Positions 3,127 to 15,296 of a DNA stretch of 64,000 nucleotides are shown one piece after another. The notes below the pieces were generated by a model. It was not told where the DNA came from, did not search any database, and worked only from the letters and a program-made list of their open reading frames with translations. Position 1 is the first letter of the stretch. Each line of letters begins with the position of its first letter. Origin of the DNA: Ignavibacteria bacterium (lineage in GTDB: Bacteria; Bacteroidota; Ignavibacteria; Ignavibacteriales; Ignavibacteriaceae); assembly GCA_030684555.1 (NCBI GenBank), contig JAUXVN010000013.1:62001-126000 (forward strand), written 5' to 3'. A program made the position numbers and the translations under genes.

Positions 3127-4029
3127 TTAATCATCATCATGTTTCTCCCTTTTCTTCTTTTCACGCTCGTTTCGATTCTTCCCTTTGGCTTCATCTTCGT
3201 CTCCTGAACGATGGCATTTCACGCAGTTGATAAAATCGGATATTCCTTCTTTACGGTGTTTTTCAGCAATCCGAGCTGGCTGATGTTCATGACAATTATA
3301 ACATGTATAAAATTCGAAACTCTTCTGGACATCATGACACTTACTACAATCGGATGGATGATGTTTATCGAATCTGAAATATTCAGAGTGTTCAAAAGTA
3401 GACGGCTTCCATCCAGAAGTGGTATGACATTTAACACATAATATTTTTGAGGTTAGCCCTGCATGAAAATCGTCTTTAGGAATATTTGTAAAATGACAGG
3501 ATTCACAATCATTTTTATTCGAAGTAATTAGTTCATGTTTAAAAACTGCTGCAGTCCAAGTCTCAGTTGTATGGCATGAGACACAATTTTCAGAAATCCT
3601 ATTGTGAATTTTATCTATCGGCAATTTTTCTCGATGGCAGCTAACACAGTCATTTATTAATTGCACCGGTAAAACATTATGTCTGAAATTAAGTATTGCA
3701 TTTTCTTTTGATAATCCGTTATGCTCTGTATGACAATAATAACATTCAATGTTGTTAATAGATTTATGGAGTAAGTTCGTTTTAGGATTTTGGAATTGAA
3801 GAGTTAAACCTTCTACTGTTTTAATCCCAACTTCAGAGATATTATGACAATCTAAACATTTCTCTGTTGTTGGTCCAGAGCCAACAACATGACAGGCGAA
3901 ACAATTATTACGCAGTCCATCATGTCCTCTTACAAGAACACCCGGATTTACTGTGTAATAAGGAAATAGATAAATAGAAACTAAACCTAAAAGAATTGTT
4001 ATGGAAAAAAACATTCCGGTTCTATACAT
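3127..4029 (-). CDS. Membrane-anchored decaheme c-type cytochrome
   Basis: A 300-residue protein with one N-terminal transmembrane anchor (about residues 5-25) followed by ten CxxCH haem-attachment motifs (CFACH, CLDCH, CYYCH, two CVSCH, CESCH, CVKCH, CSKCH, CYNCH, CVKCH). No CxxCK or other catalytic-haem variant is seen, so it is predicted to carry electrons, not to be a reductase. The ATG at 4029 is chosen because GGAG lies six bases upstream and the start overlaps the stop of the preceding gene (ATGA); a longer reading from 4119 would overlap that gene by 91 bases. The last 25 residues are an alternating basic/acidic tail (KGKNRNEREKKKREKHDDD). Its immediate partner, a di-heme b-type membrane protein, suggests a quinol- or NADH-linked module delivering electrons to the periplasm. 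Confidence 0.85.
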   Translation of the reverse strand: MYRTGMFFSITILLGLVSIYLFPYYTVNPGVLVRGHDGLRNNCFACHVVGSGPTTEKCLDCHNISEVGIKTVEGLTLQFQNPKTNLLHKSINNIECYYCHTEHNGLSKENAILNFRHNVLPVQLINDCVSCHREKLPIDKIHNRISENCVSCHTTETWTAAVFKHELITSNKNDCESCHFTNIPKDDFHAGLTSKILCVKCHTTSGWKPSTFEHSEYFRFDKHHPSDCSKCHDVQKSFEFYTCYNCHEHQPARIAEKHRKEGISDFINCVKCHRSGDEDEAKGKNRNEREKKKREKHDDD

Positions 4030-4604
4030 CACCATCTCCACAAAAGAATAGTTATTATAATGTGAAGCAGGGCAAACGCAGCAAATATCATTGTAAGAGG
4101 CATGTGTACTTTCCTCCACTTCTGCATGGAATCAACTAAAAGAGAATTGAATAACAATTCTTTCTCCATCTCTTCAGTTGATAATGTTGAATCAATAAGT
4201 TCAGTCTTTTTTTTCTTCAAGCTCTCTTTAGCATTGTTGAGTAGATATTTTCCTGTTAAACCACTCGCAACAACTACTAACATTGAGAAGAGTGCAAGCC
4301 AGGGAATAACTGCATTAAAATGAATACCTCCATGAACTAATATCATTAATGCACCAAACCAACCAAGGAATTCGTGATTTTGCAAAAGTTTTTTTGGCGA
4401 ACCGGAACTGATTAGTTTTCTTTTACGAAGTGAATAAATGAATGAAAGTATAATCAGAAGTGTACCGACGAAACCTAAATATCTTCCAATCCAAACAAAC
4501 CCAAATTGATGGAAGATATAATCGATCAATATTGTTAAGATAATTAGAGTAATAAAAAGTAGGACTGAAGGAATTACTTTCGATATAACAAATTTTATAG
4601 CCAT
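4029..4604 (-). CDS. Di-heme cytochrome b-like membrane protein (short paralogue)
   Basis: A protein of about 191 residues with four predicted transmembrane helices. Two helices each carry a pair of histidines exactly 14 residues apart (H-x13-H): HEFLGWFGALMILVH and HMPLTMIFAAFALLH. That is the spacing that binds two stacked b-haems in four-helix-bundle cytochromes b. The same four histidines and spacing occur in the 289-residue protein encoded at 14427-15296, so the two are paralogues. The ATG at 4604 is preferred over an in-frame TTG four codons earlier because a GAG element precedes it by seven bases. Its stop overlaps the decaheme start, implying translational coupling and probably a physical complex. 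Confidence 0.7.
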   Translation of the reverse strand: MAIKFVISKVIPSVLLFITLIILTILIDYIFHQFGFVWIGRYLGFVGTLLIILSFIYSLRKRKLISSGSPKKLLQNHEFLGWFGALMILVHGGIHFNAVIPWLALFSMLVVVASGLTGKYLLNNAKESLKKKKTELIDSTLSTEEMEKELLFNSLLVDSMQKWRKVHMPLTMIFAAFALLHIIITILLWRW

Positions 4605-4688
4605 TAAAAATCTCAAAAAGTTAGAAACAAAAAATAGATAATTTATTTCTATTCTTATATTTATTTAATTGTTAAGTAAGTCGAAAAA

Positions 4689-5033
4689 TTAAATTTCTAA
4701 ATTAACCACTTCGAAACTACCGTTGCAAATATGACCGGTCAGAGTTATATATTCAGAATTTTCTATCCCAGCTGGCACCAGCAATGTTGTTTGGATTAAC
4801 ATTTCAGTACCGTTTCTATCCTCTACATAAAATTGGGTTCCGTTATCACTTCCCATTTTTTGAATTCCTTTTTCCATAACTAGTTTTACAACAATTTCTT
4901 TTTGAACATGGCTGTCGCGGTCATAATCAGCAAAAGAACCAAGTCCTTTGAATGGTGAAAAATAAAAGAAGTAGACACTTATTAAAACTATACTCAACAA
5001 TAATGGCAAAATTAAATTTTGTTTCTTTAGCAT
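4689..5033 (-). CDS. Membrane-anchored CcmE-like OB-fold protein
   Basis: A 114-residue protein with an N-terminal transmembrane segment (about residues 7-27) and a small beta-rich domain. The pattern of KEIVVKLVMEKGIQKMG, FYVEDRNGTEMLIQ and EYITLTGHICNGSFEVVNLEI resembles the OB-fold of the cytochrome c maturation haem chaperone CcmE. The C-terminal histidine/tyrosine motif (HxxxY) that binds haem covalently in CcmE is absent; the chain stops just after the last strand. It sits between the 34-heme cytochrome and a di-heme b-type gene, so a role in haem delivery or as an assembly factor is plausible. The resemblance is by eye only; a generic OB-fold protein is the alternative. Confidence 0.45.
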   Translation of the reverse strand: MLKKQNLILPLLLSIVLISVYFFYFSPFKGLGSFADYDRDSHVQKEIVVKLVMEKGIQKMGSDNGTQFYVEDRNGTEMLIQTTLLVPAGIENSEYITLTGHICNGSFEVVNLEI

Positions 5034-5071: not shown

Positions 5072-7651
5072 TTAATCCAAAACTCTTTTATTCATTATTT
5101 TGTCACTTGTCCCATTCGGATGACAATTAAGGCAAGCAATACTATTATATGAATAACCATTCACACCGTTGTGTTCGCTGTCCATTTTACTTTTTCTATG
5201 CTCATGACAATCAATACAAGAAAATGTTGTAAAGGTGTTTGGTGTTCGATGACAATCCGAACAAGAGTTCCATTCATTTCGATGTTCTCCAGAATAAATT
5301 GGGAAATACAATACATCATGGTTGAACGATGAGGGGGACCATCCATTTGTAGTGTGACAAACTATACAATCCGTTGGAAACAGTGCCGTTATATGATTCG
5401 GGTTATTTTGTGGATTCTGAAAATCAGATTGATGACATGAATAACAAATTTGAGGAGTGCCTACATAACCGTTAGCATGGCACGATTGGCAGCTTACAGT
5501 CGTGTGCCTGCCAGTCAAAGGGAACTCTGTATTATTATGGTTAAAAGTTGAAGGTGACCATCCATTTGTAGTATGACATACTAAACAATCTGTTGGGAAA
5601 TTTGCAGTCATATGATTGGGATCATTATCGGGATTTTGAAAATCTGCTTGATGACATGAATAACATTCTTGTGGAGTGCCTACATAACCGCTTGTGTGAC
5701 ATGCTTGGCAACTTACAGTAATGTGCTTACCTGTCAAAGGGAACTCAGTATTATTATGGTTGAACAATGATGGAGACCAACCATTTGTACTATGACAAAC
5801 TGAACACTCTGTAGGATAATTTGCAGTAATATGGTTGGGATCATTATTGGGATTTTGAAAATCTTGTTGATGACATGAATAACAGTCTTGTGATGTGCCT
5901 GTATATCCACTTGAATGGCATGATGCACAACTTACTGAAACATGTTTTCCGGTTAATGGGAATGCGGTTGTACCATGATCAAACTGTGCCGGCTGCCAAC
6001 CAACAGTCGTATGACATGTTTTACATTCCTGCGAAAAATTTGCAGTTATATGATTAGGATCATTATTAGGATTTTGAAAATCTTCTTGATGACAGGAATA
6101 ACAAACTTGTGATGTCCCTGTATATCCATTTGAATGGCATGATTCACAGCTTGTCGTGGTATGTTTTCCGGTCAACGGGAATGCAGTTACTCCATGATCA
6201 AACTGTGCCGGCTGCCAACCAGCAGTTGTATGACATGTTTTACATTCATGTGAAAAATTTGCAGTTATATGATTAGGATCATTATTAGGATTTTGAAAAT
6301 CATTCTGATGACATGAATAACAATCTTGTGATGTCCCTGTATATCCACTTGAATGGCATGATTCACAACTTACTGCAGTATGCTTTCCGGTTAATGGAAA
6401 TGCGGTTGTACCATGGTCAAACTGTGTCGGCTGCCAACCAACTGTTGTATGACATGTTTTACATTCTTGTGAAAAATTTGCAATTATATGATTAGGATCA
6501 TTATTAGGATTTTGAAAATCTTGTTGATGACATGAATAACAATCTTGTGATGTCCCTGTATATCCACTTGAATGGCATGATGCACAATTTACTGTACTAT
6601 GTTTTCCGGTTAATGGAAATGCGGTTATACCGTGATCAAACTGTGTTGGCAACCAACCATTCGTTGTATGACATGTTTTACATTCATGTGAAAAATTTGC
6701 AGTTATATGATTAGGATCATTATTAGGATTTTGAAAATCATTCTGATGACATGAATAACAATCTTGTGATGTCCCTGTATATCCGCTTGAATGGCATGAT
6801 GCACAATTTACCGTAGTATGTTTTCCGGTCAATGGAAATGCGGTTACACCATGGTCAAACTGGGCAGGCTGCCAACCATTAGTTGTGTGACATGTTTTAC
6901 ATTCCTGCGAAAAATTTGCAGTAATATGATTGGGAACAGTATTAGGGTTCTGGAAATCTTGTTGATGACATCCATAACAATCCTGATTTAAACCGGTAAA
7001 AGAGTTGGAAGAGTGGCATGCAGAACATTCATTTATTTGATGCCCATCGGTTAAAGGGAAAAAATCGTGAACAAATTTTCCCTCAGCCCATTGTAATCTA
7101 CTTATGGAATGACAATCTGAACAATCGATTGAAAATCCGGCACTTATATGATTGGGATCTACTGTTTTTTCAAAATCAGTTTTGTGGCAATCATAACATT
7201 CAATTCCTTTCGGCTCAAAGATTCTATCAGCATAACCCGAATGACATTGACTACAATCAGCCGACAAGTGACTTCCCAACAAAGGAAATCTTCCCCGCTG
7301 GTGCAATTCTGTTATGTTCGGAATAATCCATGTTGATGTGTTATGGCAAGTAGCACATTCTTTGCTGACACTATTTTGATGAATATCTTTATGACAACTT
7401 AAACAATTTTGTTCAGCTTTGTTGAATACCAATGTTTCATGACATGAATTACAACCTACCGTTTTATGTTGTCCGGTTAATTCAAATCCAGTCGAACTAT
7501 GATTAAACTTAATTGTTTCTGAAAGTGGGATCCATTGTAATTCAGAATGACAATCGGAACATTCTAGATTGAAGTTACTGCCGTGTGGTGATTGGGCATA
7601 AATACCAAATCCTAAGATTACAAATAACACGAAAACCAAAAAAATACGCAT
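5072..7651 (-). CDS. Giant 34-heme c-type cytochrome with tandem three-heme repeats
   Basis: An 859-residue secreted protein with a signal peptide (about residues 1-20, cleavage near YAQ|SPHG) and 34 CxxCH motifs. The architecture is an N-terminal nine-heme region (to about residue 241), seven repeats of exactly 73 residues, and a four-heme C-terminal cap. The first Cys of each unit is at residues 251, 324, 397, 470, 543, 616 and 689, with the cap starting at 762. Each repeat carries three CxxCH motifs plus three further histidines (FDH, GKH and PNH), enough for bis-histidine ligation of all three haems. There is no lipobox, no obvious anchor, and no CxxCK catalytic site. It is a paralogue of the 19-heme protein at 9424-10911, with near-identical ends. 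A 168-bp gap upstream may hold its own promoter, though I see no convincing boxes. The likely role is a periplasmic or extracellular electron wire. Confidence 0.9.
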   Translation of the reverse strand: MRIFLVFVLFVILGFGIYAQSPHGSNFNLECSDCHSELQWIPLSETIKFNHSSTGFELTGQHKTVGCNSCHETLVFNKAEQNCLSCHKDIHQNSVSKECATCHNTSTWIIPNITELHQRGRFPLLGSHLSADCSQCHSGYADRIFEPKGIECYDCHKTDFEKTVDPNHISAGFSIDCSDCHSISRLQWAEGKFVHDFFPLTDGHQINECSACHSSNSFTGLNQDCYGCHQQDFQNPNTVPNHITANFSQECKTCHTTNGWQPAQFDHGVTAFPLTGKHTTVNCASCHSSGYTGTSQDCYSCHQNDFQNPNNDPNHITANFSHECKTCHTTNGWLPTQFDHGITAFPLTGKHSTVNCASCHSSGYTGTSQDCYSCHQQDFQNPNNDPNHIIANFSQECKTCHTTVGWQPTQFDHGTTAFPLTGKHTAVSCESCHSSGYTGTSQDCYSCHQNDFQNPNNDPNHITANFSHECKTCHTTAGWQPAQFDHGVTAFPLTGKHTTTSCESCHSNGYTGTSQVCYSCHQEDFQNPNNDPNHITANFSQECKTCHTTVGWQPAQFDHGTTAFPLTGKHVSVSCASCHSSGYTGTSQDCYSCHQQDFQNPNNDPNHITANYPTECSVCHSTNGWSPSLFNHNNTEFPLTGKHITVSCQACHTSGYVGTPQECYSCHQADFQNPDNDPNHMTANFPTDCLVCHTTNGWSPSTFNHNNTEFPLTGRHTTVSCQSCHANGYVGTPQICYSCHQSDFQNPQNNPNHITALFPTDCIVCHTTNGWSPSSFNHDVLYFPIYSGEHRNEWNSCSDCHRTPNTFTTFSCIDCHEHRKSKMDSEHNGVNGYSYNSIACLNCHPNGTSDKIMNKRVLD
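5369..6901 (-). repeat. Seven tandem 219-bp coding repeats (three hemes each)
   Basis: Seven head-to-tail units of 219 bp, with no indels between them, encode residues 251-761 of the 34-heme cytochrome. The five units at the N-terminal end of the array are nearly identical at DNA level; the last two (5369-5806) are more diverged. Alternation of SQEC and SHEC before the first haem motif of successive units suggests that some duplication steps copied two units (438 bp) at a time. Confidence 0.92.
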
Positions 7652-7819
7652 TATAACCCAATCGACTTTAATCTTTTAAAATAACAATAGGAAATGTTCA
7701 CACTGAAACTACATTATTAAATTTCAAGAGTAAAAATATAATAAAACCTCTATTATGAAAAATTCCTCAATTCATTTTTAATAAATAGACAATTCATCAT
7801 CTTACACTAATCTTAACAA

Positions 7820-9427
7820 TTAAAATCTAGTATTTATTTCTATAAAAAATCTATAATTAATATTTCTCTCCGAATTTATCATCTCTGCATTTAATGAGAG
7901 GAACGACTTTCCAAAGAGTTGCTGCGTTATATCAAAACCAAACAAATTTTGAGATATCGAAATATTGTTTTGGGATAATGTCCATGCAGTATTACTTGCA
8001 TATATAGACGTTGTTAATCGACCTTCAAAAAAAGGTTTACTAAATCGTGCTGAAATTATATTACCATTAGAAAAACTATTTAGAAGTCTTGAAAAATTTA
8101 ATGAAGCACTTCCCAGAAGGTATGGAACTTGAGACCATGTAACGTATCCATTATAGTTCGAAGAAGATTTTGTATCTCCTCCCATAAATCTATGACCGAA
8201 ATTTAACCCAATATAAACATCCCTCACAGGACGAACCGTTGCGCCAACTCTCAAGCCTTGTCTGGTTTCGTTCTCGTAAAGACTGTCAATAAAACTTTTG
8301 AAAGATTCAAGGTAAACAACGTTCTTTCTTGCATCGTAGGAAGCATTAAATGTTAACATTTTCGAAGCTGAAATTCTTGCACTGAAATAAAAACTGGTTA
8401 AGGATAACTCACTTTTGCGAATTCCCTTATTCATTGAGAAGAAATCCACTTCCGATGAAAAATTAATTTGTGTTAATGGAATGAAATCATTGTAATGTTG
8501 AAAATAGATAAATCTTCTATCGATGGAAGTTTTATACATCTGTTGAAAAAGTGCAAATGAGTTTGAGGTAAAACTTTTATTAATAGAATCATTTCTACTT
8601 AGAAAAAAACCGAATTGCGGAAGAATGTTAGTTGTACTATTGTTATCCCAATTCGGGCGTCTTCCTGCAATTATTCCCCCTTCAAAAAAAGAGAATTTAT
8701 GCTTGTAAAGTGCTCCATCAACTGCGCCTATATTTGAAACAGCATTATCTATAAATCTACCAACTGTAACCGATGATTTTTCATTGATGAGATATTTTAA
8801 TGAAAGGTCATAAATCCTAAGATGTTTGTTACTGCTTAACCGGAACTTATCCGGATCACTATTTTTGTAGGAATAAGTCATGTAATTATTGAATATTAAT
8901 TTTTTATCCATTAGTGCATCTGAATAATATGAGAAAGAGTAACGCCATCTTTGAAATGAATAATTACTGAATTCATTATTAAGTCCTGTATAAGATTGCA
9001 GCGAGAATCTTCCTCTTGATTGAGTAGTAATCCTTTTTTCCGATTTGATAATTTGAGAATTGAATTTCATCTTCGCTGCATTTATAGAATCTATCGATGA
9101 TGAATCTGGTAAAATTTTCTCAATCACTTCAACTTTGTTTTTTACTAAAGCAATCACGGTCTGGTTCATCACCAATTTAATATCTGATATATATTCTCCC
9201 GATACAGATTTGCTTGAGGTTTGCACTACTCTAACTACAGGTAACAATTTTTTATTCACTTCGGTAAAAAGTGTGTCCCCAATATTTATTCCAATAGTAG
9301 ATTCATAACCAACATAAATTTTTTGAATGCTAATAAAAGTAACTCTACCAGCAATTTTCTCTATGTTCGTTTGACTGAACATAATTATTGGTAAAAAAAT
9401 GAATAAAATTAATTTAATCCTTCTCAA
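7820..9427 (-). CDS. Outer membrane beta-barrel (putative porin of the cytochrome conduit)
   Basis: A 535-residue protein with a signal peptide (MRRIKLILFIFLPIIMFSQ) and a small N-terminal domain (about residues 25-105, SH3/flagellar-P-ring-like strands). The remaining 380 or so residues are amphipathic beta-strands with aromatic girdles (RWRYSFSYYSD, YNGYVTWSQVPYLLGSASL), ending in FIEINTRF, a C-terminal Phe. No haem motif is present. The start overlaps the stop of the 19-heme gene by 4 bases (ATGA), so the two are translationally coupled. Placement between two multiheme cytochromes mirrors porin-cytochrome conduits (MtrB/PioB/OmbB-type), but I see no specific sequence signature of those families. 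A specific sheath for a cytochrome is therefore an inference from context. Confidence 0.7.
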   Translation of the reverse strand: MRRIKLILFIFLPIIMFSQTNIEKIAGRVTFISIQKIYVGYESTIGINIGDTLFTEVNKKLLPVVRVVQTSSKSVSGEYISDIKLVMNQTVIALVKNKVEVIEKILPDSSSIDSINAAKMKFNSQIIKSEKRITTQSRGRFSLQSYTGLNNEFSNYSFQRWRYSFSYYSDALMDKKLIFNNYMTYSYKNSDPDKFRLSSNKHLRIYDLSLKYLINEKSSVTVGRFIDNAVSNIGAVDGALYKHKFSFFEGGIIAGRRPNWDNNSTTNILPQFGFFLSRNDSINKSFTSNSFALFQQMYKTSIDRRFIYFQHYNDFIPLTQINFSSEVDFFSMNKGIRKSELSLTSFYFSARISASKMLTFNASYDARKNVVYLESFKSFIDSLYENETRQGLRVGATVRPVRDVYIGLNFGHRFMGGDTKSSSNYNGYVTWSQVPYLLGSASLNFSRLLNSFSNGNIISARFSKPFFEGRLTTSIYASNTAWTLSQNNISISQNLFGFDITQQLFGKSFLSLNAEMINSERNINYRFFIEINTRF

Positions 9428-10911
9428 TCTAATCCTAATCTCTTTAAATGAATTGGTCTATCTTCCCTTCCATTGGGATGGCAGGTGAGACATGCATTGC
9501 TGTTATATGAATATCCACTCACACCGTTATGTTCACTATCCATTTTAGTCTTCCGATGCTCATGACAATCAATACACGAGAATGTAGTAAAGTCATTTGG
9601 GGTTCTATGGCAATCGGTGCAGTTTGTCCATTCGTTTCGATGTTTGCCTGAGTATATCGGAAAATATAAACCGTCGTGATTAAAGGTTGATGGTGTCCAG
9701 CCATTAGTTGTATGACATGATAAACATTCGGTAGGAAAATTTGAAGCAATGTGATTCGGATTGTTTGTTGTTCGTTCATAATCCGACCTATGGCATGTAT
9801 AACAATCAAGTGCGGTACCTGAATAACCGCTCGAATGACATGATTGGCAACTAACAGTTGTGTGTTTGCCGGTTAATGGAAACTGAGTTGTATTATGATC
9901 GAAAGTCGCCGGTTCCCAGCCATTTGTTGAATGACATGATTTACAATCCTGTGAAAAATTTGCTGTAATATGATTTGGATCGTTTAAAGGATTTTCATAA
10001 TCAGAACGGTGACACGAATAACAATCAATTGCAGTTCCGGAATATCCTCCTGAATGACACGATTGGCAACTCGCTGAAGTATGTTTTCCGGTTAAGGGAA
10101 ATCGTGTTATGTTATGATCAAAAGTGGCAGGTACCCATGAATTTATTGAATGACATGCTTTACAATCCTTCTCAAAATTAGCAGTTAGATGTTCTGGATT
10201 TGCAGCACTCACATAATCGCTTTTATGACATTCATAACAATCTTTAGAAAGTCCAATAAAACTGGACTGAGAATGACATAAAAAACAATCATTAATTTTA
10301 TGTCCACCAATCAACGGGAAAATATCATGAACAAAACTTGAATTAGTCCAGGCTACTTGATTAATCGAATGACATAATTTACAATCTGTGCTAAGACCTA
10401 CTGTTTTGTGGTTTGGATTTACTGTATTAGCATAATCAGTTTTGTGACAATTATAACAGTCAACATTTAATGGTTCGAATACTCTATTAGAATAACTTAA
10501 ATGACACTGACTACAATCTGCAGCGAGGTGACTCCCTACTAACGGGAACCTGCTTCTCTGATGCATTTCTGTTATGTTTGAAATATTCCAACTTGCTGTG
10601 TTATGACAATCTGCGCAATCTTTACTTACACTATTCTGATGAATATCTTTATGACAACTCAAACAACTCCGCTCACCGTTTGAAAAAACTAAAGTTTCGT
10701 GGCATGATATACAATTTAAAGTTTTATGTTGTCCGGTTAATTCAAAAACGGTTGTGTTATGTTGAAATTTTATATTTGCAGATATGGGAGTCCATTCTTT
10801 TTCTGAATGACACTCAGAACAATCTAATTTAAAACTACTCCCATGTGGAGATTGTGGAAAAACAATTCCAATAAAAGAAAAAACTAATATGATGTATGGC
10901 AAAATGCGCAT
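9424..10911 (-). CDS. 19-heme c-type cytochrome (short paralogue of the 34-heme protein)
   Basis: A 495-residue secreted protein with a signal peptide and the same mature start (QSPHGS) as the 859-residue paralogue. It has 19 CxxCH motifs: nine in the N-terminal region, two 73-residue three-heme repeats (first Cys at residues 250 and 323), and a four-heme cap starting at 396. The length difference to the paralogue is 364 residues, one less than five repeats. Extra FDH, GKH and PNH histidines per repeat support bis-His ligation. Its start codon lies inside the last 28 bases of the 20-heme gene, and its stop overlaps the start of the barrel gene. This tight coupling suggests it is the partner of that barrel. 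Confidence 0.9.
   Translation of the reverse strand: MRILPYIILVFSFIGIVFPQSPHGSSFKLDCSECHSEKEWTPISANIKFQHNTTVFELTGQHKTLNCISCHETLVFSNGERSCLSCHKDIHQNSVSKDCADCHNTASWNISNITEMHQRSRFPLVGSHLAADCSQCHLSYSNRVFEPLNVDCYNCHKTDYANTVNPNHKTVGLSTDCKLCHSINQVAWTNSSFVHDIFPLIGGHKINDCFLCHSQSSFIGLSKDCYECHKSDYVSAANPEHLTANFEKDCKACHSINSWVPATFDHNITRFPLTGKHTSASCQSCHSGGYSGTAIDCYSCHRSDYENPLNDPNHITANFSQDCKSCHSTNGWEPATFDHNTTQFPLTGKHTTVSCQSCHSSGYSGTALDCYTCHRSDYERTTNNPNHIASNFPTECLSCHTTNGWTPSTFNHDGLYFPIYSGKHRNEWTNCTDCHRTPNDFTTFSCIDCHEHRKTKMDSEHNGVSGYSYNSNACLTCHPNGREDRPIHLKRLGLD
9727..10164 (-). repeat. Two tandem 219-bp coding repeats (three hemes each)
   Basis: Two adjacent 219-bp units encode residues 250-395 of the 19-heme cytochrome. 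They have the same period and motif layout as the seven-unit array in the paralogue at 5072-7651. Confidence 0.85.
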
Positions 10912-12473
10912 TTAAAATCAGCTAATTTGTAATTAATAAATATTATTCCATTTTTTTCAGCAGGTTTATGACAACTATTACATTCAAGTTTACTGTGAGC
11001 ACCACTCAAATTAAACCTTGTTTTATCGTGATTAAATTTTTCCGGTTTCCAATTATCGAACGTATGACATTTTTCACAAACAGTAACACCATTTTCAGAA
11101 AATTGTCCAATGTGAATGTCTTTATGGCAGCCTTCACATTTTTTATCAACTGATTCGAAGACTATTTTTTTGCCGTCATAATCCTGTTTTACATGGCAGT
11201 CAATACAGTTTTTTGCTGCATGTTTTCCTAATAATGCAAATCCTGTCAATTTGTGTTCAAAAGTTACAATATTCCAACCTTCTACGCCATGACACAGCGC
11301 ACAATTGTTGTTAATTAAATATTTTTCTTTCAACTCTGTTTTGTGAATATTTTCATGACAATCGATACAATTATTTCCTTGTTTATCAAAAGTCCAAATC
11401 TCATTCTTCAGATGACAATTACTACATGGAAGAGCTAAATGTTTTCCGGTCAGTGGAAATTTCGTTTTTTGATGTTCTTCTAAAGTGAATAACGAGGGTG
11501 TAAATCCTTCCACTGTATGGCATACCGAACATTCCCCTTTATTTTTATGATTTGCAAATTCAGTTTTGTGATAATCTGAATGACAATCTGAACAATTTTG
11601 GTGTTTCAACTTTGCGGTTAAATTAGTTTTATGACACGTTGAACATTCAACCTGGATATGTTTACCAAGAAGCGGAAAGATTGTTTTGTTATGATCAAAG
11701 GATGATTTATTGATGTCATGAAAACTATTGGTATTATGACATTTGGTGCAATCATTCCCAAATTTTCCGTTGTGAACATCTTTATGACAAGAAAGACAAC
11801 TCGAAAAGTTTATACCTTTAAAAGTCTGAAAATCTTTTCCGTTTTTTTTCTCCTTTGTATGGCATTTTATACATTCAGTATCTTTATGCTTCCCGGTCAA
11901 GTTAAATTTAGATTTTGTGTGATCAAAATTAACTGCTGGTTTGAAGGAATTAAACCCATGACATGAAGAACAATCACTCCCCAAAGTTTTTTGATGATAA
12001 TCAACATGACATGAAAGACAGTTTTGCTCTAATCCTAAAAAAGTAAATTTTCTTTTTTTTAGTTTTGAATCAGAAATATTTTTTGATGTATGACATTTTT
12101 CGCAGTCTGTTTCTTTGTGTTTTCCTTTCAGCTCGTAACCGGTTTTAATATGATCGTAATTGTTTTTATCGAACCGAATTATCTTGAAATTTCTACCATG
12201 GTGCTCACTATGACAATCCCAGCATTCCTTATTCTTAATCTCATTTGAAGAATGATAACCTCTTCCTTTATTAATCAAATTTTTAAGTTCAACATGACAA
12301 TTAAGGCATTTAGATTTTTCAACTTTTTCACCAAGCTGATGACAATTGGTACAATTGCTCAATCCTTCAAGCTTTGCGTGTGCTTTTGATAAATCGCCCG
12401 GAGAAATTTGACTGTAAATTTCAAAAGAAGAAATAAGTAGGATCAAAAAAATAATTCTAATAATATTTATCAT
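10884..12473 (-). CDS. 20-heme periplasmic c-type cytochrome
   Basis: A 529-residue protein with a signal peptide (MINIIRIIFLILLISSFEIYSQ) and 20 CxxCH motifs, spread to the very C-terminus (CAFCHTSY). Recurrent GKH, FDH and DYH/DIH histidines between the motifs could provide sixth ligands. The architecture is looser than in the 19- and 34-heme proteins: repeats of about 65-75 residues are visible but are interrupted by lysine-rich loops. No CxxCK site is present. Its start overlaps the stop of the Fe-S/FAD oxidoreductase by 4 bases. The lysine richness and position suggest a soluble periplasmic carrier between the inner-membrane module and the outer-membrane conduit; that order is inferred from gene order only. 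Confidence 0.87.
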   Translation of the reverse strand: MINIIRIIFLILLISSFEIYSQISPGDLSKAHAKLEGLSNCTNCHQLGEKVEKSKCLNCHVELKNLINKGRGYHSSNEIKNKECWDCHSEHHGRNFKIIRFDKNNYDHIKTGYELKGKHKETDCEKCHTSKNISDSKLKKRKFTFLGLEQNCLSCHVDYHQKTLGSDCSSCHGFNSFKPAVNFDHTKSKFNLTGKHKDTECIKCHTKEKKNGKDFQTFKGINFSSCLSCHKDVHNGKFGNDCTKCHNTNSFHDINKSSFDHNKTIFPLLGKHIQVECSTCHKTNLTAKLKHQNCSDCHSDYHKTEFANHKNKGECSVCHTVEGFTPSLFTLEEHQKTKFPLTGKHLALPCSNCHLKNEIWTFDKQGNNCIDCHENIHKTELKEKYLINNNCALCHGVEGWNIVTFEHKLTGFALLGKHAAKNCIDCHVKQDYDGKKIVFESVDKKCEGCHKDIHIGQFSENGVTVCEKCHTFDNWKPEKFNHDKTRFNLSGAHSKLECNSCHKPAEKNGIIFINYKLADFKCAFCHTSY

Positions 12474-13807
12474 TTTCGATGAGACAACAATGCCTCTCCA
12501 AATTTTTTAGTAATAGTAATTCCGGTTTTCTCAAGAAACTGGGTGGGTAGTTCACCTCCGGCAAAAATATAGACCAGATCATTCGTCAGTTTAATAGACT
12601 CTTTTGTTACTGAATTTTCTAACAGAACTAAATCATCTTCAATCTCAATAACGTTTGTGTTAAATAAAATATTGACTAAACCCTGTTTTCCTGCATGAAG
12701 AATACGTTCATTGTTTTTAGGTTTTATTCGTGCAAAATTAGCAGCTCTATAAGAAAGAGTTACATCATTAGAATTTTCTGCAAGCAATAATGCCGATTCA
12801 ATTGCAGAATCACCACCGCCAACAACCAATATTTTCTTCTTGTTTATTAATTCAGGTTCCAACAAACGATAATAAACATTTTCCTTTTCCTCTCCTTTAA
12901 CACCAAGTTTGCGCGGTGAGCCTCTTCTGCCGATCGCTAAGAGGATTGAAGAAGCCGTATAGTTTTTTTTATCTGTAAAGAGAGTAAAAACATCCTTTTC
13001 TTTTTCAATTGCAGTTACTTTTTCTAACTCATTAATGCTAATAATATTTTTTTCGAGAACTGATTTCCATATAGAGATAAGTTCCGCTTTTGAAGTTTCG
13101 GTTAATTTAATTTTACCCCAAAGCGGGAGTTCCATTGGTGAAGTCATAACAATTTTATCCCGTGGAAAATTGGAGACTGTTCCACCAAGACTCTCCTGTT
13201 CGATAATTTGAAATTTCAAATTGTGCTTCTTTGCATTTAGAGCAGCAGAAATTCCGGCTGGACCCGCACCGACGATAATCAAATCATTTTCTGCATTTGA
13301 TTTTTTCGGTAGCTTTTTGACAATATAATTAACTGCTTGCTTTCCCTGTTCAACGGCATTCTTAATCAAACCCATCCCACCAATTTCACCTGCAATAAAA
13401 ATGAGCGGAACACTAGTTTCAAATTCAGAACTTACATGTGGAAGTTCAACTCCGCGTTTCTCGGTTCCAATACATAAAGTTATTGCTTGAACAGGGCAAG
13501 CATGAAAACATGCACCATGTCCAACACATCTTGAAGCATTTATTACTGCGGCTTTACCGTTTCTCCATCCAAGTATATCTTTTTCCGGACATGCTTCAAT
13601 ACATGCACCGCTTCCGATACAAGAATTTATATCAACAACAGGATGAAGAGATACGGGTTCATAAAATCCACCTTCTTTCGCCTTCATTATTTTCTGCTCT
13701 GTAATGGAAGTGCGCTTTGCTGTCTTTTTGAGGTATCTCCAAAAAATGACGATAACTACTATAGCTGTTATGACGTATGCTGCAATATTTTCAATTAAAA
13801 CTTCCAT
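12470..13807 (-). CDS. Membrane-anchored ferredoxin-FAD-NAD(P)H oxidoreductase
   Basis: A 445-residue protein. Residues about 5-24 form one transmembrane helix followed by KKTAKR, placing the rest in the cytoplasm. Next comes a ferredoxin-like domain with two motifs, CIGSGACIEACP and CVGHGACFHACP. Then follows a thioredoxin-reductase-like flavoprotein fold with an FAD site (VGAGPAG, about residue 177) and an NAD(P) site (VVGGGDSAIE, about residue 330). Both ferredoxin motifs lack the second cysteine of the usual CxxCxxCxxxCP (Ser and His occupy that place), so the cluster type is uncertain. It is encoded 3 bases after the TPR gene and overlaps the 20-heme gene. The likely role is exchanging electrons between NAD(P)H and the membrane/cytochrome chain. 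Confidence 0.82.
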   Translation of the reverse strand: MEVLIENIAAYVITAIVVIVIFWRYLKKTAKRTSITEQKIMKAKEGGFYEPVSLHPVVDINSCIGSGACIEACPEKDILGWRNGKAAVINASRCVGHGACFHACPVQAITLCIGTEKRGVELPHVSSEFETSVPLIFIAGEIGGMGLIKNAVEQGKQAVNYIVKKLPKKSNAENDLIIVGAGPAGISAALNAKKHNLKFQIIEQESLGGTVSNFPRDKIVMTSPMELPLWGKIKLTETSKAELISIWKSVLEKNIISINELEKVTAIEKEKDVFTLFTDKKNYTASSILLAIGRRGSPRKLGVKGEEKENVYYRLLEPELINKKKILVVGGGDSAIESALLLAENSNDVTLSYRAANFARIKPKNNERILHAGKQGLVNILFNTNVIEIEDDLVLLENSVTKESIKLTNDLVYIFAGGELPTQFLEKTGITITKKFGEALLSHRK

Positions 13808-13810
13808 AAA

Positions 13811-14416
13811 CTATAAACGATCTATTGAGGTTGAAGCTAATTGTGCGGTAGGTGTTTCGGGATATTTTTTAATTATTTCCTGCCAGATTTTTTTTGCTTT
13901 ATCTTTATCACCTTTAGCGGCGAAAATTGCACCAAGATTGTATTCAGCTTGTTCATCATTTTTATCAAAAGATAAAATTCGATTCGTGAATTCTTCAGCT
14001 TTGATTAAGTCTTGATTATTGAAGTATATTATTGATAAGTTGAATAGAACATCTTTTCTTTTGGAATTAATTTTCAATATTTGGTCGTAATACTGAATAG
14101 CTTCAAGCGGTTTATGACCTTCATTTAGAAGGTCAGCATATTGGCGCATAGACAAAGTATCTTTTGGATTTGATTCAACTTTTAATTTTAGATCCGCTAA
14201 TTGTTTGCGAAAATTCTCATTTACATTCGCCCTTGTTGGAGTTTCGGCATTCCCCAGGTTTTTATGTACATCGTCCATCGGCATTTGTTTCTCCTCAATC
14301 GAACTGAGTGGAGTTGATGTTTTCTCCTTTTCAAATTGAGTTACAAGAATGACACCAACAACCAGAATTAAAAAAAATGCCGGATAAAATATTTTTGTTG
14401 AAAATTTAAAATTCAT
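13811..14416 (-). CDS. Membrane-anchored TPR protein of the cytochrome operon
   Basis: A protein of about 201 residues. The ATG at 14416 is chosen because AGGAG lies six bases upstream; an earlier in-frame ATG at 14449 would overlap the preceding gene. An N-terminal transmembrane segment (FFLILVVGVILV) is followed by a charged linker and three to four tetratricopeptide repeats (e.g. ALEAIQYYDQILKINSKR-like, AEEFTNRILSFDKNDEQA, AKKIWQEIIKKYPETP). The layout resembles CcmH/NrfG/CycH-type TPR proteins that present apocytochromes to haem lyase, and its operon encodes cytochromes, so a scaffolding or maturation role is plausible. The alternative is a generic complex-assembly factor. Confidence 0.7.
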   Translation of the reverse strand: MNFKFSTKIFYPAFFLILVVGVILVTQFEKEKTSTPLSSIEEKQMPMDDVHKNLGNAETPTRANVNENFRKQLADLKLKVESNPKDTLSMRQYADLLNEGHKPLEAIQYYDQILKINSKRKDVLFNLSIIYFNNQDLIKAEEFTNRILSFDKNDEQAEYNLGAIFAAKGDKDKAKKIWQEIIKKYPETPTAQLASTSIDRL

Positions 14417-14426
14417 AATTAACTCC

Positions 14427-15296
14427 TTAAAAAATCCATTTATATCCAAAAAGAATCGTTACTCCAACGTGGATTAACATAATAACGAACATCGTAATTG
14501 CAAAAGGCAGATGGAATATATGCCAATATCTAAAAAGCCGATGCATCAATTTTAAGTGCTGAATTCTTCTGGACATTATTAATCTTTCTTTTAATCTGTT
14601 TATAGTTTCAACAACTTCAATTTTACTAAGTCCTTTTTCTGTTTTCAGTATAGATTTTATCGACCTTAATAATTTCCGAATCTGAAACATATCTCTAACT
14701 ATGAATATTAAACTGTTTACCGCCGTAATATTCCGATATCTTTCCCCTGATAAATATGAATCTACTTTAGACCTAATATCATTATTTAGATTTATGCTTG
14801 ATGTAAAACTTTGTTCTAATTGATTTTGAAGTTCTTCTAAGTCAATCTCTTTTCCTTGAATGGTTCGAGGAATCTGAATGTAAATAAATCTACCGATCAC
14901 ACCACTCAAAACTACTGCAACCATACTCCAAAAACTTATTGAGACTATTCCGCCAAATTTAAATGCCGTATGAAACAATACAAGCAATGGTCCAACACTG
15001 CACAAAAACATATGGAACTCTAACCAATTCTTTAAATAGCCGAATGAAAACAAAACACGCATTCTTTTACGAATCATATAAACAGAAACTCCAATGATCA
15101 TCATCAGAGTACCGATTATTCCTAACCCGTGACCGATATAACCACTTGGCTTTAGCAAATCATGTTTAATATCAAACGGACGCTCTTCCAATTGAAGTGA
15201 ATAGTAATCAACTCCATGATAAATCAGAAGAAATAGTGAGGTTATCCCTACGGCAAAAAATATTCCGATATAAATACGATGAAGAGTTTTATTCAT
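14427..15296 (-). CDS. Di-heme cytochrome b-like membrane protein (long paralogue)
   Basis: A 289-residue protein with about five transmembrane helices, first gene of the 12-kb cytochrome locus. Two helices carry H-x13-H pairs (HMFLCSVGPLLVLFH and HLPFAITMFVIMLIH), the geometry of a two-b-haem four-helix bundle. A cytoplasmic or periplasmic insertion of about 90 residues with coiled-coil character (about residues 145-245) separates the third helix from the last. The final 30 residues and the histidine layout match the shorter paralogue at 4029-4604. It could be a quinol dehydrogenase feeding the multihemes, or it could pass electrons from the adjacent NAD(P)H oxidoreductase. No family name is certain. 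Confidence 0.68.
   Translation of the reverse strand: MNKTLHRIYIGIFFAVGITSLFLLIYHGVDYYSLQLEERPFDIKHDLLKPSGYIGHGLGIIGTLMMIIGVSVYMIRKRMRVLFSFGYLKNWLEFHMFLCSVGPLLVLFHTAFKFGGIVSISFWSMVAVVLSGVIGRFIYIQIPRTIQGKEIDLEELQNQLEQSFTSSINLNNDIRSKVDSYLSGERYRNITAVNSLIFIVRDMFQIRKLLRSIKSILKTEKGLSKIEVVETINRLKERLIMSRRIQHLKLMHRLFRYWHIFHLPFAITMFVIMLIHVGVTILFGYKWIF

Follow-up and report, generated by a model that had tools for sequence, protein, structure and literature searches.

The window analysed here, 64,000 nucleotides of the genome of an Ignavibacteria bacterium (source assembly 4.34 Mb in 152 contigs), carries a gene in which a 219-bp repeat encoding three haem-binding motifs recurs in tandem. Such an array raises the question of whether its copy number changes, in what steps and how recently, and what a cytochrome built from a variable number of three-haem modules may do for the cell.

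Results

Architecture of the modular cytochrome

The repeats lie within a single gene, MOD34, whose parts are as follows:

5072..7651, minus strand: MOD34, modular multihaem cytochrome, 859 aa, 34 CxxCH motifs, Sec-type N-terminus
7148..7651, minus strand: fixed six-haem head of MOD34, spacing 36-16-16-34-19-25, kept across homologues
6926..7147, minus strand: u0, first triheme unit, orthologous across species
5831..6925, minus strand: u1–u5, five 219-bp units, 87–91% identical, expanded in the lineage of the window
5393..5830, minus strand: u6–u7, two 219-bp units, 81% identical to each other
5072..5392, minus strand: u8, fixed last triheme unit, with the last haem and the C-terminus
6663..6784, minus strand: 122-nt exact tract, copy 1, identical to 6225–6346 at a lag of 438
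6225..6346, minus strand: 122-nt exact tract, copy 2, identical to 6663–6784

TRF gave a period of 219 over 5330–6982 (7.5 copies, 84% matches), together with an overlapping row of period 438. An earlier note on this DNA had described seven units in exact 219-bp register, and the register holds: the span 5369–6901 is exactly 7 × 219 bp in a single open frame. The seven units are real, but they belong to a larger series of nine triheme units, u0–u8, which follow the six-haem head and precede one last haem in a protein of 34 CxxCH motifs. Every Cys of MOD34 sits within a CxxCH motif, and each of the seven internal units spans 73 aa with its haems spaced 32-15-26.

MOD34 matched PF14522 (Cytochrome c7 and related) in six stretches with 116.6 bits against a gathering cut-off of 24.8, and came close to, but stayed below, the cut-off of 40 for the NCBIfam c(7)-type triheme nanowire domain TIGR04257 (37.8 bits). 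A PDB sequence search gave a single weak match, the nine-haem cytochrome 1duw, and an AF2 model of the 859-aa protein had a mean pLDDT of 54, too low for a fold search. Units u0–u6 contain no Met and every unit in the window has 3–4 His residues outside the motifs; across the homologues described below, at least three such His residues are present in 542 of 546 units. The His counts and the lack of Met in u0–u6 point to bis-His ligation of the MOD34 haems. A promoter scan around the gene found consensus matches at a frequency near chance (21, with 15.8 expected).

Divergence within the array

The five similar units had been called almost identical, which is an overstatement: in the register used in the earlier note they share 84–93% of their DNA sequence, and 87–91% in another register. 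The remaining two units of the seven share 80% identity with one another, and 65–73% with the five, in the first of these registers. Synonymous divergence (dS) among the five is 0.16–0.48, while dN/dS is mostly 0.12–0.23, with 0.46 for u2–u3. These units are thus well diverged and under purifying selection, and the array is not the product of a recent burst; a recent change in copy number finds no support in MOD34. In a tree of units, u1–u5 group together (bootstrap 94), as do u6–u7 (93), while u0 clusters with first units from other proteins (98) and u8 with their last units (100).

It had also been proposed, from the alternation of SQEC and SHEC before the first haem motif, that duplication proceeded partly in two-unit steps of 438 bp. 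A two-unit origin for the whole array of the window was rejected. A pattern separating u1, u3 and u5 from u2 and u4 occurs at 0 of 46 variable sites, and the Q codons of u1, u3 and u5 end in G, A and G; simple identity by descent therefore does not account for the SQEC/SHEC alternation. Units one apart (89.4%) resemble each other as much as units two apart (89.8%). What does stand from the proposal is one tract: the longest exact repeat in the array, 122 nt at a lag of 438, exceeds expectation in 5000 column permutations (mean 56, 95th percentile 74, P about 2e-4). We take this tract as evidence for one local event, which may have been a two-unit step or a gene conversion.

Haem number among relatives

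Modular cytochromes were matched in 50 of 80 genomes of the family, and a search with the head alone matched 90 of 391 genomes of the class and 35 of 395 sampled from the phylum. The comparison of haem numbers was made between species, one genome per species, on 64 complete homologues drawn from fetched loci and named records. One modular gene was excluded from the counts because it is split into two overlapping ORFs with 16 and 23 haems (L061 9179–12095, genome G042), likely by a frameshift or an assembly error.

The 64 homologues carry from 15 to 70 haems, the largest being a protein of 1717 aa with 70 CxxCH motifs (L149, genome G336, from 6241 onward). Haem numbers of the form 7 + 3n (1 mod 3) were found in 47 of the 64, for which the binomial P of 6e-11 is only nominal because the homologues are related and thus not independent. 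Most of the others miss one motif in the tail; a wide gap stands at the end of 10 of the 12 homologues at 0 mod 3, where one motif is missing. The first unit has as its nearest neighbour the first unit of another protein in 58 of 64 cases, and the last unit the last unit of another protein in 53 of 64, whereas 197 of 436 middle units are nearest to another unit within the same protein. The ends, which match their counterparts across species, are therefore fixed, while the middle turns over. The cytochrome encoded beside the modular one, CYT20, behaves differently: it has 20 haems in 47 of the 56 loci with a complete partner, and the standard deviation of its haem number is 1.3, compared with 12.2 for the modular cytochrome.

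A change of copy number by whole three-haem units is thus strongly supported between species, and the same step appears within the window genome, where MOD34 and its paralogue MOD19 differ by five units (34 and 19 haems). The length of the modular cytochrome has therefore changed repeatedly in evolution.

Individual events can be seen in closely related genomes. The sister genomes G076 and G075 share 88.7% DNA identity over 7.9 kb, and their CYT20 and head sequences are 98% identical, yet their modular cytochromes have 31 and 43 haems, a difference of one four-unit block. Since G074, of the same genus, shows the double-block spacing, a loss of the block in G076 is the simpler reading, although divergence is also seen in the last units of G076. 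Steps of two units, doubtful for most of the window array, are clear in two relatives with 100% identical units two apart: u4 and u6 in L053, and u2 and u4 in L054, where u3 and u5 are also 95% identical. In other lineages the closest pairs of units lie one, three, four or seven units apart, as for u4 and u11 of L056 (97%). Change in unit number is episodic, since other pairs of species have kept theirs, with units corresponding one to one (G033 and G034, both 37 haems; G037 and G039, both 40 haems).

The gene cluster around MOD34

MOD34 is the last gene in transcription order of a cluster whose other members are:

14427..15296, minus strand: b-type inner-membrane protein, 289 aa, two WX3HX13H motifs and SGXXG
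13811..14449, minus strand: TPR protein
12470..13807, minus strand: FAD / 4Fe-4S pyridine-nucleotide-type oxidoreductase
10884..12473, minus strand: CYT20, 20-haem cytochrome, constant partner
9424..10911, minus strand: MOD19, paralogous modular cytochrome, 495 aa, 19 haems, four triheme units
7820..9427, minus strand: beta-barrel outer-membrane protein, 535 aa, AF2 pLDDT 83 and fold matches

The order of transcription is b-type protein, TPR protein, FAD/4Fe-4S oxidoreductase, CYT20, MOD19, beta-barrel and MOD34, and a similar order occurs in Ignavibacteria and in other Bacteroidota, among them Emticicia oligotrophica. The inner-membrane protein of the window and 34 of 34 relatives have two WX3HX13H motifs flanking SGXXG; a simple hydropathy scan of the b-type protein gave overlapping windows that merge into about five segments. 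No Pfam or NCBIfam profile and no viral contig matched the barrel. Its AF2 model (mean pLDDT 83) had outer-membrane receptors and porins as best fold matches, with Z up to 19.6, and neither MtrB nor OmbB was among the matches listed.

The modular gene is present twice in the window, flanking the barrel gene (19 and 34 haems, 5072–10911), and a relative has two modular genes side by side, with 32 and 20 haems (L057). In a named isolate, Emticicia oligotrophica DSM 17448, the cluster lies on the 100-kb plasmid pEMTOL02 (L165, NC_018749.1 76000–96000) and comprises CcsA, the b-type protein, FAD-FeS, a 23-haem and a 40-haem cytochrome, and the barrel.

Beyond MOD34, the window encodes a 10-haem cytochrome (3127–4119) whose ORF overlaps that of a membrane protein of 195 aa in which two HX13H motifs and SGXXG occur (4029–4616). 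This pair resembles the extra pairs of cytochrome and membrane protein noted by He et al. (PMC5566968). Between it and MOD34 lies a 114-aa ORF (4689–5033) that matched nothing in Pfam or NCBIfam and lacks a homologue in the fetched loci of the relatives.

Relation to known conduits

By gene content and motifs, the cluster looks like a PCC3 porin–cytochrome conduit. He et al. 2017 (PMC5566968) gave a pair of WX3HX13H motifs with SGXXG as the signature of the inner-membrane protein of PCC3 and PCC4, a protein with five transmembrane helices in PCC3. PCC3 combines a beta-barrel with two very haem-rich cytochromes, of which one is extracellular and the other periplasmic, with medians of 34 and 21 haems; the haem numbers in the window are 34 and 19, and 20. 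The repetition of haem motifs and an inner-membrane protein of about 300 aa with that signature are likewise shared with the PCC3 of these extracts, and haem number varies there too, from 10 to 35 for the outer cytochrome in Gallionellaceae (PMC10734462, in extract). There are also differences. The hosts of PCC3 named in the extracts of both papers are Proteobacteria, whereas clusters of the window type were found in Ignavibacteria and other Bacteroidota. In Proteobacteria, a search returned weak membrane-protein matches only. Clusters of the window type add the FAD/4Fe-4S oxidoreductase, and often the TPR protein, to the PCC3 set as it appears in those extracts, and the same extracts (PMC5566968, PMC10734462) hold no three-haem quantum and no fixed end units.

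Haem-rich cytochromes of Burkholderiales and Chloroflexi also vary in haem number, which their authors called an "unexplored area" (PMC7399161). There, as here, porins and partner cytochromes are near-identical while CxxCH domains are inserted or deleted in the larger cytochrome, but the genomes are few and from other lineages, and no rule of unit size or end conservation was given. The dodecahaem nanowire cytochrome GSU1996 (PMC10138318) is likewise a single chain of linked three-haem c7-like domains; it has four of them, each with one His-Met haem, whereas MOD34 has nine units and, with no Met in u0–u6, does not have a His-Met haem in each triheme domain. Borg-element multihaem cytochromes (PMC9879509) share fast-changing in-frame tandem repeats in extracellular cytochromes, but those repeats are T/P-rich and disordered and always leave functional domains intact, while the MOD34 repeat is itself the haem-binding domain.

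PCC3-like clusters and variation in haem number are thus already known (PMC5566968, PMC10734462, PMC7399161). What the present analysis adds is the quantum of three haems, the constancy of both ends and the occurrence in Ignavibacteria and Bacteroidota. In searches of the open-access literature we found no prior description of haem number changing by threes between fixed end units next to a partner cytochrome that stays constant, nor of this cluster in Ignavibacteria or other Bacteroidota, nor any paper on Emticicia together with a multiheme cytochrome.

Discussion

The array is probably the expandable middle of a large porin-conduit cytochrome, in which recombination adds or removes whole three-haem modules between fixed ends. 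The protein opens with a six-haem head and a first unit that are both fixed, continues with a variable number of three-haem modules of ~73 aa, and closes with a last unit and last haem that are likewise fixed. Modules may be gained or lost, singly or in blocks, by in-frame recombination between repeats (unequal exchange, slippage or gene conversion), a mechanism suggested by the whole-unit steps and the block copies. Haem number would then step by three, with the reading frame and the chain of haems left intact.

MOD34 itself is predicted to form a linear bis-histidine haem wire, placed on the outer side of the barrel, with electrons passing between the inner membrane and extracellular partners. 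From what is known of conduits, the route may run from the quinone pool or FAD/FeS through the b-type protein, CYT20 and the barrel to the modular cytochrome, in either direction. The number of modules may set reach or charge capacity. If the relation of about 27 haems per 200 Å (PMC7096707) holds, each module would span about 22 Å and members of the family roughly 110–520 Å. It is a further and, in our judgement, improbable step to suppose a length-tunable wire, a contingency locus at which cells or strains of one population differ in unit number and so in the reach of extracellular electron transfer.

A possible, although less probable, reading is that the modules store charge as a periplasmic or surface capacitor, their number being nearly neutral or tuning capacity and drifting by repeat recombination. 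The range of 15–70 haems beside a constant 20-haem partner fits weak selection on length, and a capacitor role has been stated for GSU1996 (PMC10138318) and suggested for large cytochromes (PMC7399161). Against this, almost all units retain their haem motifs, ligands and reading frame and dN/dS is low, which indicates that the units are not drifting freely, and some pairs of species hold their unit number constant. A recent or ongoing two-unit amplification of 438 bp in the window genome, with length variants in the population, is doubtful: the exact tract of 122 nt and the amplification at 100% identity in L053 and L054 favour it, but the dS values, the lack of alternating sites and the equal similarity at one and two units oppose it.

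Unit number could also be set, in the window and in many relatives, by collapse or expansion during short-read assembly. Many of the relatives' genomes are indeed fragmented, and several homologues end at contig edges. However, haem numbers of 22, 28, 34, 37 and 43 come from single-contig genomes, and the modular cytochrome on the complete Emticicia plasmid has 40. This variation speaks against collapse as the general cause. Random misassembly would give neither fixed ends nor whole-unit steps, and the units of the window can all be distinguished, with no exact repeat longer than 122 nt. As a general explanation, an assembly artefact is thus very unlikely, while collapse of extra identical units is possible in the window assembly itself.

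The family offers a clean system for the variation in haem number, the area described as unexplored (PMC7399161). It combines fixed ends, a three-haem step, a constant partner in the same cluster as internal control and 64 complete examples of 15–70 haems with sister genomes one block apart and a named carrier isolate, Emticicia oligotrophica. Whether wire length is under selection becomes directly testable in this family, and PCC3-like conduits are extended to Ignavibacteria and other Bacteroidota.
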